Positions 14,758-25,169 of a DNA stretch of 33,463 nt are shown in pieces (position 1 is the first letter of the stretch; the number at the start of each line of letters is the position of its first letter). The notes under the pieces were generated by a model. The model searched no databases. It saw only the letters and a list, made by a program, of their open reading frames with translations, and was not told the origin of the DNA. Source of the DNA: an uncultured Clostridium sp. Lineage in GTDB: Bacteria > Bacillota > Clostridia > TANB77 > CAG-508. The position numbers were made by a program, and so were the translations under genes. The stretch lies in NCBI GenBank assembly GCA_946500265.1, contig CAMMVE010000016.1, forward strand, positions 1-33,463, written 5' to 3'.

Positions 14758-14858
14758 CCACTCTATGGAAGTTTCCACACAAGAATTACTGCTTATTGCT
14801 GCTTCCTTCCGGACCTGACAAGGTTCACAGGTTCTTGTTGGTCCCCTCCATACAATGG
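14758..14858 (-). ncRNA. ffs: Signal recognition particle RNA (small SRP RNA)
   Basis: Contains the universal SRP loop on the minus strand, GTCAGGTCCGGAAGGAAGCA, with the GGAA tetraloop and the internal asymmetric loops. The termini pair: CCATTGTATGGA (14858-14847) with TCCATAGAGTGG (14769-14758). Length about 101 bases fits the short bacterial type without an Alu domain. It binds Ffh and guides membrane proteins to the translocase. Exact ends are estimated from the terminal helix. An apparent ORF on the same strand is only a shadow. Confidence 0.93.
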
Positions 14859-15851: not shown

Positions 15852-15944
15852 TGGCGGAGCGGGTGGGATTCGAACCCACGTGCCAGCTTTCACTGACCAA
15901 CTGATTTCGAGTCAGCCTCGTTATGACCACTTCGATACCACTCC
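15852..15944 (-). tRNA. tRNA-Ser(CGA)
   Basis: Class II tRNA with a long variable arm. Acceptor GGAGTGG pairs with CCGCTCC (one G-T pair), anticodon loop CTCGAAA gives anticodon CGA (codon UCG), T arm GTGGGTTCGAATCCCAC, discriminator G, and CCA is encoded in the DNA (15854-15852). Confidence 0.96.
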
Positions 15945-18252: not shown

Positions 18253-18329
<77 letters not shown>

Positions 18330-19221: not shown

Positions 19222-19269
19222 AAAGTGAAACATCGGGACACATTCAAATGTGTCCCAACGTTTCACTTT
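19222..19269. repeat. Intergenic hairpin repeat, copy 3, acting as two-way terminator
   Basis: AAAGTGAAAC (19222-19231) pairs with GTTTCACTTT (19260-19269) and the inner GGGACACATT / AATGTGTCCC arms extend the stem; T-rich sequence follows on the plus strand (CACTTTTATTTC). It fills exactly the gap between the convergent ttcA-like and pgcA stop codons, so it probably ends both transcripts. Confidence 0.75.
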
Positions 19270-21005
19270 TATTTCTTTGCCTCTTCTGACATTTCTTTTA
19301 CTGCATTTTCCAAGGCTTTTAATTCATTGTCTGCATCTTCCATACTATTTCCGCAAACACCCATATAAAATTTTATTTTTGGTTCTGTTCCTGATGGACG
19401 TACACATATCCATGCATTATTTTCTAAATCAAAGTATAAAACATTTGATTTTGGTAGACCTGTAGAAGTTTTGTTTCCATTTTCATCTATAATTTCTTGT
19501 TTACTATAATCTCCAAATGATTTTACTTTTAGTCCTGCTAATTCTTTTGGTGGATTATTTCTCATATTTTCCATCATCTTTTTAATTTCTTCAGCACCTT
19601 CTATTCCCTTTAAAGTAATAGACATTTGTTTTTCTTTATAATAACCATATTTTTTATACATTTCATTCATTTGATCCCATAATGTTAATCCATGCATTTT
19701 GTAATATGCTGCCGCTTCACAAACTGTCATTACAGCTACTATTCCATCTTTGTCTCTAGCATGTGTTCCTATTATGCACCCATAGCTTTCCTCATATGAG
19801 TATACACATTCATATGAATGTTCTTGTTCAAATCCTCTAATTATTTTTGCTATATTTTTAAATCCTGTAAGTGTTGCAAATAATTTTACTCCATATTCTT
19901 TTGCAATAGCATCTGTCATATTTGATGATACTATAGTTTTTATAATAGCTCCATTTTCAGGAAGTGTTCCTGTAGCTTTCTTCTGTGATAATATATACTC
20001 TGCAATAAGGTTTCCTGTCATATTTCCATTAAATTGAATATATTCTCCTGTTTTTGTGTCTTTTACATATATTCCTAATCTATCTGCATCTGGGTCATTA
20101 GCTAAAATAATATCTGCATCTACTTTTTTAGCAAGTTCTAATGCCAATGTAAATGCCTTTGGATCTTCTGGGTTTGGATAACTTACTGTTGGAAAATGCC
20201 CATCTGGTTGCTCCTGCTCTTTTACAATATATACATTTTCAAATCCAATTTCTTTCAAAATTCTTTGTACTGGCATATTTCCAGTTCCATGTAATGGTGT
20301 ATATACAATTTTTATATCTTTTTGCATTTTCTTTATTGCATCTTCATGTACAACTAATTTCTTAAGCTCTGCTATATATTTATCATCTATTTCTTTTCCT
20401 ATAGTATTATATAGCCCTTTTTGAACAGCCTCTTCTTTTGACATAGTTTTAATTGTACTAAAATCTGTTACATTATTAACTTCTGTAATAATTTCCTTAT
20501 CCGTAGGCTCAACTATTTGAGCTCCATCCTCCCAGTAAACTTTGTATCCATTATACTCTGGTGGGTTATGACTAGCTGTAATTACTATTCCGGCAATACA
20601 TCCAAGCTCTCTTACCGCATATGATAGTTCAGGTGTTGGTCTTAAATCCTCAAATCTATATGTTTTTATTCCATTTGCATTCAAGCAAAGAGCTGTTTCC
20701 TCACTAAATTCTTTAGACATAATTCTACAGTCATATGCAATTGCAACTCCTCTTTCTTGTCCACCTTGCTTTACTATGTAATTTGCTAAACCTTGTGTTG
20801 CCTTTGTTACAGTGTATTTGTTCATTCTATTTGTTCCTATACCTATAACACCTCTTAAGCCCGCTGTTCCAAATTCTAGGTCTTTATAAAATCTGTCTTC
20901 AATTTCAGTATCATTTCCTTTAAGTGATAATAATTCTTTCTTACTTTCTTCATCAATTACAGGGTTATTTAACCATTCATTGTATCTTTCCTCATAGTTT
21001 TTCAT
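19269..21005 (-). CDS. pgcA: Alpha-phosphoglucomutase / phospho-sugar mutase
   Basis: A 578-residue enzyme converting glucose-6-phosphate to glucose-1-phosphate for UDP-glucose, glycolipid and wall-polymer synthesis. The phosphoserine is S145 in ITASHNPPEYNGYK; metal loop DPDADRLG at about residue 305; sugar loop ESYGCIIG, and the phosphate-binding end VRPSGTEPKIKFYMGV. Length matches Bacillus PgcA (about 580), and it is longer than ManB/GlmM types. Lies downstream of galU, the next enzyme of the pathway, separated by an ncRNA candidate and a terminator, so it probably has its own promoter in 21006-21075. Confidence 0.93.
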   Translation of the reverse strand: MKNYEERYNEWLNNPVIDEESKKELLSLKGNDTEIEDRFYKDLEFGTAGLRGVIGIGTNRMNKYTVTKATQGLANYIVKQGGQERGVAIAYDCRIMSKEFSEETALCLNANGIKTYRFEDLRPTPELSYAVRELGCIAGIVITASHNPPEYNGYKVYWEDGAQIVEPTDKEIITEVNNVTDFSTIKTMSKEEAVQKGLYNTIGKEIDDKYIAELKKLVVHEDAIKKMQKDIKIVYTPLHGTGNMPVQRILKEIGFENVYIVKEQEQPDGHFPTVSYPNPEDPKAFTLALELAKKVDADIILANDPDADRLGIYVKDTKTGEYIQFNGNMTGNLIAEYILSQKKATGTLPENGAIIKTIVSSNMTDAIAKEYGVKLFATLTGFKNIAKIIRGFEQEHSYECVYSYEESYGCIIGTHARDKDGIVAVMTVCEAAAYYKMHGLTLWDQMNEMYKKYGYYKEKQMSITLKGIEGAEEIKKMMENMRNNPPKELAGLKVKSFGDYSKQEIIDENGNKTSTGLPKSNVLYFDLENNAWICVRPSGTEPKIKFYMGVCGNSMEDADNELKALENAVKEMSEEAKK

Positions 21006-21075: not shown

Positions 21076-21108
21076 AAAAAAAACTATAATTATTAAAAAT
21101 TATAGTTT
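21076..21108 (-). terminator. Intrinsic terminator after the ncRNA candidate
   Basis: On the minus strand an 11-base perfect stem (21108-21098 with 21091-21081) with a 6-base loop is followed by eight T (complement of A at 21076-21083). It ends transcripts coming from galU or from the RNA at 21118-21275, before pgcA. Confidence 0.85.
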
Positions 21109-21117
21109 CCTAAAAAA

Positions 21118-21275
21118 TTATTATTTAAAGGTAATCCAATTTCGCATGTCCTGCAACGGTAGTTTTAATTAAAAAAGTCTCACGTCGTCCCAACGGAACT
21201 ACCTGCGCAGCTCGACTTTTTTAATTATAAACTCCCTGCGCGGACTTCATGTTCATCTGAACCTTTAAATAATAA
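21118..21275 (-). ncRNA. Nested-stem non-coding RNA candidate between galU and pgcA
   Basis: About 158 bases, far richer in G+C than other gaps. Outer stem: ACCTTTAAATAATAA (21261-21275) with TTATTATTTAAAGGT (21118-21132), 15 perfect pairs. Inner stem: GACTTTTTTAATTA (21214-21227) with TAATTAAAAAAGTC (21166-21179), 14 perfect pairs, capped by about 34 bases containing GTCGTCCCAACGGAAC. Between the stems are G+C-rich single-strand-like segments (minus: GAAGTCCGCGCAGGGAG and TTGCAGGACATGCG). A strong terminator follows on the minus strand. There is no ORF. The class is not established; the conserved clostridial raiA RNA is one possibility I cannot confirm. It starts ten bases beyond the galU stop, so it may be co-transcribed with or processed from galU mRNA. 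Confidence 0.6.
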
Positions 21276-21284
21276 CTTTTATCC

Positions 21285-22154
21285 TTATATATCTAAACTC
21301 TTTAAGAATTTAATCATCTCATCTCTTAATTCAGGTCTTCTTAAAGTTTCATCAACAGAAGCTTTAACAAATCCTAATTTGTCTCCTGAATCAAATCTTG
21401 TTGCTTCATAATCATATGCATACACACCTTCTTTTGTATTTACCATACTGTTATATGCATCTGTTACTTGAATTTCCCCACCTTTTCCTGGTTTTGTATT
21501 AGCTAGGAAATCGAATAAATCAGGCATCAAAACATGTCTATCAGATATAGCTAAATTTGATTTTGTTTCTTCAACTTTTGGCTTTTCTTGCATTTTTTCT
21601 ACTTTATATAGTCTATCATTTATTGCCTCTCCTGAAACATTACCATATTTTGGCACATCTTTCCAGTCAACTTTTTCTACACCAATTACAGAAGCACCTA
21701 GTCTTTCGTGCTCATCTATGATTTCTTTTAGGCATGGCTTTTTGCCTTGCATAATAACATCACCATACATAATTGCGAATGGCTCATTTCCAACAAAATC
21801 TTTTGCCATGTAAATTGCATGACCAAGTCCTTTTGCTCCGCCTTCTTCTTCTATAAAGTGTATTTTAGCCTTTCCTGATAAATTTGTTATCTGTGGTATA
21901 AAGCTTTCTTTTCCTCTTTCTACTAAAAAGTCTTCTAATTCCTTATCTTCAGAAAAATAATCTTCAACTACTTCCTTTTTTCTACCTACTACTAATAGTA
22001 TATCTTCTATTCCAGACGCAACAGCCTCATCTACTAAGTATTGAATTATTGGTTTGTCTAAAATTGTTAGCATACATTTAGGCAAACTCTTGCATGCTGG
22101 AAGAAATCTTGTTGCAAAACCTGCAACTGGTATAACTGCTTTTTTTACACTCAT
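21285..22154 (-). CDS. galU: UTP-glucose-1-phosphate uridylyltransferase
   Basis: A 289-residue nucleotidyltransferase making UDP-glucose. N-terminal nucleotide loop VAGFATRFLPACKSLPKCML (a variant of the usual GxGTRxLPxTKxxPKEML), then KPIIQYLVDEAVASGIEDIL, EGGAKGLGHAIYMAKDFV, YGDVIM, and the sugar-binding GKGGEIQVTDAYNSM and DSGDKLGF. Length and all motifs are normal. RBS CAGGAGGA. With pgcA next door it feeds the UgtP-type glycosyltransferase at 10503. Confidence 0.93.
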   Translation of the reverse strand: MSVKKAVIPVAGFATRFLPACKSLPKCMLTILDKPIIQYLVDEAVASGIEDILLVVGRKKEVVEDYFSEDKELEDFLVERGKESFIPQITNLSGKAKIHFIEEEGGAKGLGHAIYMAKDFVGNEPFAIMYGDVIMQGKKPCLKEIIDEHERLGASVIGVEKVDWKDVPKYGNVSGEAINDRLYKVEKMQEKPKVEETKSNLAISDRHVLMPDLFDFLANTKPGKGGEIQVTDAYNSMVNTKEGVYAYDYEATRFDSGDKLGFVKASVDETLRRPELRDEMIKFLKSLDI

Positions 22155-22244: not shown

Positions 22245-22766
22245 TTAAGCATATCCTTCAAAGACATCTTGAATTTCTTTTTCCCCAGAAGTATTCAATA
22301 TTCTATCATGAGCATGCAATATTTCTGGCATATTAATATTAAACTCACTTACTTCAAAACAATTAATAATTTTAATGTTTACTTCTTTATACTTTTTACT
22401 ATTATCTTTTAGAAATTTTTCTATGTTTTTATTTGTCAAATCAATATAATTCTTACTTCCATTAATAAAAACTACATTAAGCTTGTCCTTAATTTCTAGT
22501 TTACTCATCTTTTCTTTAAGCTCTGAATACTTAATTCCATTAGATGACTTCCAATTAATATTTAGTATTTTTTCTTCATTCTTTAAATTTAATTTTTTTA
22601 TCAAAGTTCTTATATTTTCTTCTATTCCATTTTCTAATATTGTTATTACATTAGCTTTTTCGTTTATTTGTTTATTAATATATGGAAGTAACATTGTAAC
22701 TAAGTGCCAGTCGCTCACATAAAAACTACATAATTTTTCAATGTTATTTTTAGATGATTCCATCAT
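22245..22766 (-). CDS. Conserved-looking cytoplasmic protein, unknown function
   Basis: A 173-residue protein I do not recognise. It opens MMESSKNNIEKLCSFYVSDW then HLVTMLLPYINKQINEKANV, followed by alternating strands and helices (VITILENGIEENIRTLIKKL, KLNVVFINGSKNYIDLTNKN, KIINCFEVSEF) that suggest a Rossmann-like alpha/beta fold. No membrane segment. ATG 22766 follows GGAGG by five bases; the extra four residues upstream lack an RBS. It has its own terminator and is divergent from spoIIR, 231 bases away, so a sporulation link is possible but unproven. Confidence 0.7.
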   Translation of the reverse strand: MMESSKNNIEKLCSFYVSDWHLVTMLLPYINKQINEKANVITILENGIEENIRTLIKKLNLKNEEKILNINWKSSNGIKYSELKEKMSKLEIKDKLNVVFINGSKNYIDLTNKNIEKFLKDNSKKYKEVNIKIINCFEVSEFNINMPEILHAHDRILNTSGEKEIQDVFEGYA

Positions 22767-22886
22767 ATTAACCTCCATTCGGACTAATTTATAGTCCTAA
22801 TAAAAATTTATTAATAATTTCTTCTTGCTATATGGAAAATTTTACCATTTGGATTTCCGTAAGTCAAGACAAATCGTGTGCATAAT

Positions 22887-23725: not shown

Positions 23726-25169
23726 CTACTTTACATAAAGCTGGACACGAAAGGAGAGGCTGGGATTGGAATCGCTAGGAGCACCAAAATAGCGACTGGC
23801 TGCATAGCTACTGCTAGAGGAGTAAGATCCTCCCCTAGTCACGCAAGAATTAATGCCATTGCTAGAGTACTCTGTAGTCCATTCCAAGCAATTACCAAGT
23901 AAATCATGGATATTACTATAATTGTCGTTTGTATCAACACCAGTATTTTTTCTACTACCTGTTCCTATATTTCCATAACTACTACTTGTTGTTGTTGCTA
24001 ATGTATATCCTGCACTATTTGTTTGACATATAAAATTTAATGCTGTATCCCATGCATAACTACTTATTAATTCACTTACTACTGAACTTTCTTCTCCATA
24101 CATTGCTTTTGCATTACTTTTTGTCATATATATTGTAACAGTTGCTCTTGGAATTTGATTATATTTACACACATTTCCTGTTCCCTGCTCATAACGTCCT
24201 ATATAAAATCCTCCATTTCCATCTGGATTTGCTTCACTTTTTGGACTTGCACTTGCTTTAAATACTGCAATTTGAGTGCTTACACCTGAACGGCTATCTC
24301 CTTCTCCATAATAATATGTTGATATTACACTATCTCCATTTACTTCTGTTGCTCCACTTGATGTAAATGTTCTTCTTGCTAAATTATTTGTTTTTGCTCC
24401 TGTACTCGTTTGATATGTTCCTGTTGGTATCCACACAAATTGATTTCCATTTGCATCTTCTATTACTATTCCTTCTTCTACACTTGTTCCACTTTCTGCA
24501 TCTAAATGGAATCCCCCAGGGATTACCACTGAATTTCCTTGGTCATCTTGTATTGTTGTTGTATCTCCAAACTCTGGTCCGTCTTGGTCTGGATTTGGCT
24601 TCGCTTCCTCTGTTGTTCCCGGTACACTTGGTCCTTGGGTACTTACTTTTACTTCTTCTGTTCCTGCATTCCCATATTTATCTTTTACTACTACTTTTAT
24701 TGTATATTCCGTTGATGACTGTAGTCCGGTATATGTTTTTGTATTTTCTGTTGTCGCTACTCCTTGTTGCACATTATCTAAGTAATAAGTATATGTTTCT
24801 TCTTCTGCTAACCCACTTTCATCTGTTGCAGTTACCGTTACTGTTATTGTATTTTCGGTCGAGCTAGTTTGCAGACTTATACTTGGTGGAGTTGTATCAG
24901 GCTCATCTGGCTTGTCTGGATTTTCTTCTCCACTTCCATCTCCCGACATGATATTTAAGTACTCACTTAGTAGAGTATTCATTTCTTCTCCTTCGGCTAC
25001 TACACTATTTTGTGCCATATCTTTTTCTTCTTGCGCTTTCTTTATTATCCCATCATCTCCGAAACACCGTACTTATTGTTACTGTTGATAAGATAATTAT
25101 TACTATTATTGTTATTACTAACGCAACTAATGTGATACCCTCTTGGGTTTTTATTATTTTTTTCTTCAT
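23726..25169 (-). pseudogene. Prepilin-like surface protein with FN3-like and sulfatase-modifying-factor domain, frameshifted
   Basis: ATG 25169 with RBS AAAGGAGAT starts a prepilin-type leader: KKKIIKTQEG then ITLVALVITIIVIIILSTVT, cut expected after Gly. After 36 codons one extra base (about 25061) throws the frame to a quick TGA; removing it gives GDDGIIKKAQEEKDMAQNSV and a 480-residue protein. Later parts: Asp/Glu/Pro linker (SGDGSGEENPDKPDEPDTTP), an FN3/Ig-like domain (about 90-170 of the restored protein), then a formylglycine-generating-enzyme/C-type-lectin-like domain (VWIPTGTYQ, GGFYIGRYEQG, LGNCLEWTTEY, TRGGSY, FRVQLYVK). The long downstream ORF (ATG 25018) lacks the leader and would not be exported. 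Inference: surface-displayed adhesin or binding protein, off in this sequence. Confidence 0.75.
23729..23857 (-). other. Candidate variable region at the 3' end of the lectin-like gene
   Basis: The last 43 codons are about 49% G+C by hand count (63 of 129 bases) in a genome that is otherwise very AT-rich. From TCT TAC onward nearly all codons end in C or T (NNY), coding GGSYSSSSSYAASRYFGAPS. A C-type-lectin-fold target, NNY-dominated codons after RGGS, and a G+C-rich end (CCTTTCGTGTCCAGC) are the known traits of a diversity-generating-retroelement variable region. No reverse transcriptase or template repeat is in the window. Confidence 0.45.

Follow-up and report, generated by a model that had tools for sequence, protein, structure and literature searches.

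A 160-bp element of the MITE type, with dispersed copies, has very probably moved into the gap that separates the stop codon of galU from its terminator in the DNA analysed here, a 33,463-nucleotide stretch from an uncultured Clostridium sp. (the window; genome G000). Like other MITEs, the element is short, non-coding and dispersed, and it has terminal inverted repeats, an 8-bp target duplication, and sites that are filled in some genomes and empty in others. The earlier note had read the same segment as a structured non-coding RNA with its own terminator. That it is structured, non-coding and without an Rfam class holds up, but the terminator is not its own and the segment is not a solitary RNA gene. 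It is instead a copy of a repeat found at many dispersed sites, which has terminal inverted repeats, is flanked by 8-bp duplications at a share of its sites and favours neither strand.

The element and its site at galU

The stems reported in the earlier note are both exact on the minus strand. The outer stem (21275-21261 / 21132-21118) consists of 15 perfect pairs that close a 158-base unit, and the inner stem (21227-21214 / 21179-21166) of 14 perfect pairs. The inverted-repeat arms of the window copy are 20 nt each, 95% complementary and spaced 128 nt apart. Among aligned copies the terminal inverted repeats are about 16 bp long and are paired in 95.8% of cells, with the consensus elsewhere reading GTTACTrkwTAATGGTT... 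The ends of the element are placed where the 8-bp duplications of other copies begin, immediately outside G..C. The minus strand from 21284 to 21076 folds at -71 kcal/mol, compared with -36.5 +/- 4.0 for 200 dinucleotide shuffles (z = -8.6). Because the element is a palindrome, its plus strand folds nearly as well (z = -8.3). No ORF of at least 80 aa overlaps the element, in agreement with its description as non-coding. The unpaired core blocks are G+C-rich within an A+T-rich genome, and the blocks that had been thought constrained rank with the best-conserved segments when copies are compared.

Table 1. Features of the galU-pgcA region in window coordinates
Feature	Coordinates	Strand	Details
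Phosphohexomutase gene (pgcA/pgm type), next gene downstream	19269..21005	(-)	PGM_PMM I-IV domains
galU intrinsic terminator, outside the element	21076..21108	(-)	11 pairs + 8 T
Eight bases TTTTTAGG	21109..21116	(-)	Missing from the empty site of L088 (empty-site alignment)
Whole element, 160 bp, mobile on the preferred reading	21117..21276	(-)	Copies align across the stretch; orientation set by the conserved core
3' terminal inverted repeat	21117..21132	(-)	T at the outermost position, a mutation from the C of other copies
Conserved core block, 3' half ACTACCGTTGCAGGACATGC	21144..21163	(-)	Mostly invariant; partner of the 5' half
Inner hairpin and tip, 14-pair covarying stem	21166..21227	(-)	Interchangeable part; some copies carry a different hairpin here
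Conserved core block, 5' half AAGTCCGCGCAGGGAGTT	21230..21247	(-)	Near-invariant in 33 aligned copies; also in other genera
5' terminal inverted repeat GTTATTATTTAAAGGT	21261..21276	(-)	15 perfect pairs with 21118-21132
galU-type UTP-glucose-1-phosphate uridylyltransferase gene	21285..22154	(-)	TIGR01099 E = 2.4e-92, slightly under the cut-off; PF00483

Only 8 bases separate the galU stop codon from the start of the element. Beyond the element lies the predicted terminator, present on the minus strand as described, with hairpin arms at 21108-21098 / 21091-21081 followed by eight T (21083-21076). Among members of the genus, the galU-pgcA site is filled in G000 and empty in G002, G025 and others. 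In G002 (L088) and G025 (L095), galU is followed directly by an equivalent terminator and T run, and then by a TATGATATACT box, which lies upstream of the phosphohexomutase gene and is conserved in many relatives. Since relatives free of the element have an equivalent terminator, the terminator stood there before the insertion and therefore belongs to galU. The eight bases TTTTTAGG are of the size expected of a target duplication, yet they differ from the left flank GGATAAAA, so that no matching 8-bp duplication is visible or demonstrated at the window copy.

In several relatives the same spot 3' of galU holds other palindromic inserts (L108, the galU 3' region of G023; L098, that of G006; and L100/L105). 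One such insert, marked by the blocks CGGCCCCCAAC...GGTCCCCACC, is found repeatedly in the genus (L108, L098, L175, L177, L178) and is sometimes bounded by GTTAC..GTAAC ends, as is the window element. Elsewhere in the window, a near-perfect 23-nt palindrome (AAAGTGAAACATCGGGACACATT / AATGTGTCCCAACGTTTCACTTT) at 19222-19269, right where the phosphohexomutase gene ends, is probably the terminator of that gene. Upstream of galU, minus-strand ORFs of 177 and 430 aa (22245-22778 and 23726-25018) flank a spoIIR homologue and have no Pfam or NCBIfam match.

Dispersal and movement as DNA

The element is multicopy and patchily distributed. A search with a covariance model of 33 copies, in which matches on both strands at one place reflect the palindrome, found 12 full-length copies and 1 internally deleted copy in the 1.57-Mb draft genome that contains the window. 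A sequence search with a 196-base stretch gave about 15 matches in this genome and many in several relatives. Related uncultured Clostridia carry tens of copies, patchily by species, and across the order the element was found in 12 of 238 genomes and 5 of 40 genera. A scan of genome contigs returned 53 stretches, all but one from uncultured Clostridium/Clostridia records; the exception, a single match in Roseateles puraquae, was taken as probable chance. Phage and plasmid collections yielded no match to the element, and viral contigs no exact match to its pattern.

Several features argue that these copies moved as DNA. Homology among aligned copies stops at GTTAC...GTAAC. Exactly outside these ends, 8-bp direct repeats (at least 7 of 8 identical) occur at 20 of 96 sites, against 0.3 expected. 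Among core-bearing copies only, such target-site duplications occur in 16 of 82 (0.4 expected); none of 500 shuffles gave more than 3. Short forms of 50-77 bp share the ends of the element and are internal-deletion derivatives, which are typical of MITEs. Unlike a textbook MITE, however, the element has a core that is better conserved than its ends, and the ends differ between subfamilies.

What might mobilise the element? A DDE-type transposase supplied in trans would recognise the ends, cut the element out and insert it with an 8-bp stagger, and the conserved core may bind a protein or aid excision as a single-strand hairpin. Transposases of IS66, IS256, ISL3 and IS1595 make duplications of roughly 8 bp. 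None of the four is present in the draft genome G000, and among the genomes searched they are sporadic and show no association with the element. A search by terminal-repeat pattern found no autonomous partner, only end pairs 50-476 bp apart and single ends; pairings of 476 bp and 676 bp look like chance. At galU, transcription would read through the element, giving the mRNA a long 3'-UTR hairpin ahead of the galU terminator, and any effect of this hairpin on galU mRNA decay would be incidental.

Modularity and nesting of hairpins

Copies of the element are built from parts. The blocks AGTCCGCGCAGGG and CCGTTGCAGGAC and their A+T-rich linker are conserved across genera, and the outer stem and inner hairpin vary independently among copies. 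The inner hairpin is replaced in L035-L037 and L067-L072, the usual ends enclose other cores in L162, L175 and L177, and a core of the window type sits within other ends or outer stems in the L005 group, L065, L077, L125 and L144. The subfamily of L005 (with L006, L016, L017, L026, L027 and L124) has outer ends GTAACAACTCAGGTGGTAAACCTG, which we take to be reminiscent of IS66-type ends. Genus g18 (L068, L069, L072, L078, L082) has longer relatives (about 198 nt) in which the outer core blocks are retained and the inner hairpin is large, with GGGGGGACCGCTGAGGGCTG...CAGCCCCAGTGGGA.

Hairpins can also insert into hairpins in these genomes, as a comparison of L162 (545-810) with L167 (262-388) shows. 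In L162, a 130-base hairpin, TTGTTCCTTGGTGTCGC...GCGGAACTTCAA, occupies the centre of a smaller palindrome and is flanked by the 8-bp direct repeat AAATTTTC; L167 is the empty form. Inserts related to the L162 hairpin are found at galU in G019 and G020 (L105, L100).

Is the core, rather than the whole element, the moving unit? If so, it would insert in the centres of existing palindromes, such as MITE hairpins and terminators, and its outer stem would be borrowed from the target. The identical core within quite different outer stems is consistent with this explanation, as are the insertion of another hairpin mid-palindrome in L162 and the inverted flanks (at least 7 of 8) that extend past the usual ends in 22 of 82 copies, against 0.7 expected. 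However, the commonest outer stem travels with the core, the 8-bp duplications lie outside GTTAC..GTAAC and no duplication is seen around the core itself, while arm-to-arm correction could also lengthen palindromes. We therefore consider movement of the core by itself unlikely and favor movement of the whole element. It is doubtful, though a little less so, that non-coding hairpins of these Clostridia move by entering other mobile hairpins at their centres, giving nested palindromes of interchangeable layers in which the outer stem varies and the core is recognised by the mobilising enzyme.

Folding, position and comparison with known systems

Could the element be an independent structured non-coding RNA gene, possibly multicopy, acting either in trans or as an element conserved in 3' UTRs? 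Its strong fold and the conservation of its G+C-rich unpaired blocks against an A+T-rich genomic background would suit such a gene. The stems also covary, as the earlier note proposed they should: both-sided changes occur in 24 of 43 pairs, and the covariation score is 0.300, well above that of shuffles (0.118) and of slid structures (at most 0.050). This test is not decisive for RNA: changes in one arm of a transposon palindrome tend to be matched in the other, and covariation thus cannot separate RNA from DNA here. A DNA palindrome would be the simplest cause of the symmetric changes, rather than RNA function, as matched ends needed for transposition and correction of one arm by the other would produce double changes without selection on RNA. 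The core strand has more G.U pairs than A.C mismatches (38:8 in the inner stem and 29:15 in the outer, counts that come from related copies and are not independent events), a hint that this strand folds, either as RNA or as single-stranded DNA.

Other observations make an RNA gene very unlikely. The element is multicopy and patchy and has direct 8-bp duplications, and the terminator at the window copy is that of galU. A strand-specific RNA function would predict an orientation bias, but the core lies on the same strand as its neighbours in 24 copies and on the opposite strand in 27, which shows no preference. No promoter stands out in front of the copies. The class of the presumed RNA had been left open, and Rfam assigns none: at the gathering score, the whole window yielded only a small SRP RNA and two tRNAs (14759-14854, 15855-15944 and 18256-18329, minus strand), all outside the element, and at E values up to 10 there were only chance matches. 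The raiA RNA motif, which the earlier note suggested checking, is a structured RNA of similar size, but the element does not match the raiA covariance model, either at the gathering score or at E values up to 10.

None of 85 sampled copies lies within a gene, although the first or last codons of a few called ORFs extend into an end of the element. Among the 51 copies located between tandem genes, with genes defined by simple ORF calls, 31 are within 25 nt of a neighbouring stop codon, compared with 18.5 +/- 2.5 under uniform placement, a count reached in 0 of 20,000 simulations. Although this enrichment would suit a 3'-end element selected for mRNA stability or processing, like REP/BIME or an RNase III substrate, that explanation is highly improbable, as orthologous galU 3' ends lack the element in the relatives examined, sense and antisense copies are equally frequent, and purifying selection against other insertion sites also explains the position. 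For a mobile element, most surviving insertions would be those a short way beyond a stop codon, which would damage neither a coding sequence nor a promoter.

How does the element compare with known repeats? The bcr1 repeats of the Bacillus cereus group are dispersed, about 155 bp long and able to fold as RNA; the window element resembles them in these features. The bacterial MITEs ERIC, Correia/NEMIS and RUP are shorter than 200 bp, non-coding, A+T-rich and mostly intergenic, with terminal inverted repeats and target-site duplication, and their transcripts would form long stem-loops (PMC2229807). The window element shares all of these properties. It differs from ERIC, Correia and RUP, which have a TA dinucleotide at their termini (PMC2229807), in its 8-bp duplication, its GTTAC..GTAAC ends without a TA-type terminus, its conserved G+C-rich core and its interchangeable inner hairpin. 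QMITE2 of Coxiella burnetii is found mainly in 3' untranslated regions (PMC10969869), a likeness to our element in location, in a different host. Mobile DNA is likewise known to enter palindromic repeats: the IS elements IS1397 and ISKpn1 target REP palindromes (PMC1525189), and pneumococcal BOX, RUP and SPRITE insert into one another (PMC10969869). In L162/L167, by contrast, host and guest are both non-coding hairpins. We found no description of this element family in the open-access literature searched, a scope beyond which most subscription journals lie; the family seems undescribed, although its kind, the MITE, is well known.

Altogether, the element is a clear example of a transposon palindrome that passes the usual tests for a structured RNA, namely fold energy, covariation and conserved loops. 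Such repeats should be removed before low-GC gut Clostridia are searched for new classes of RNA. The transposase that mobilises the element is a specific target to look for, and the modular nesting of hairpins offers a starting point for understanding how small non-autonomous elements become diverse.
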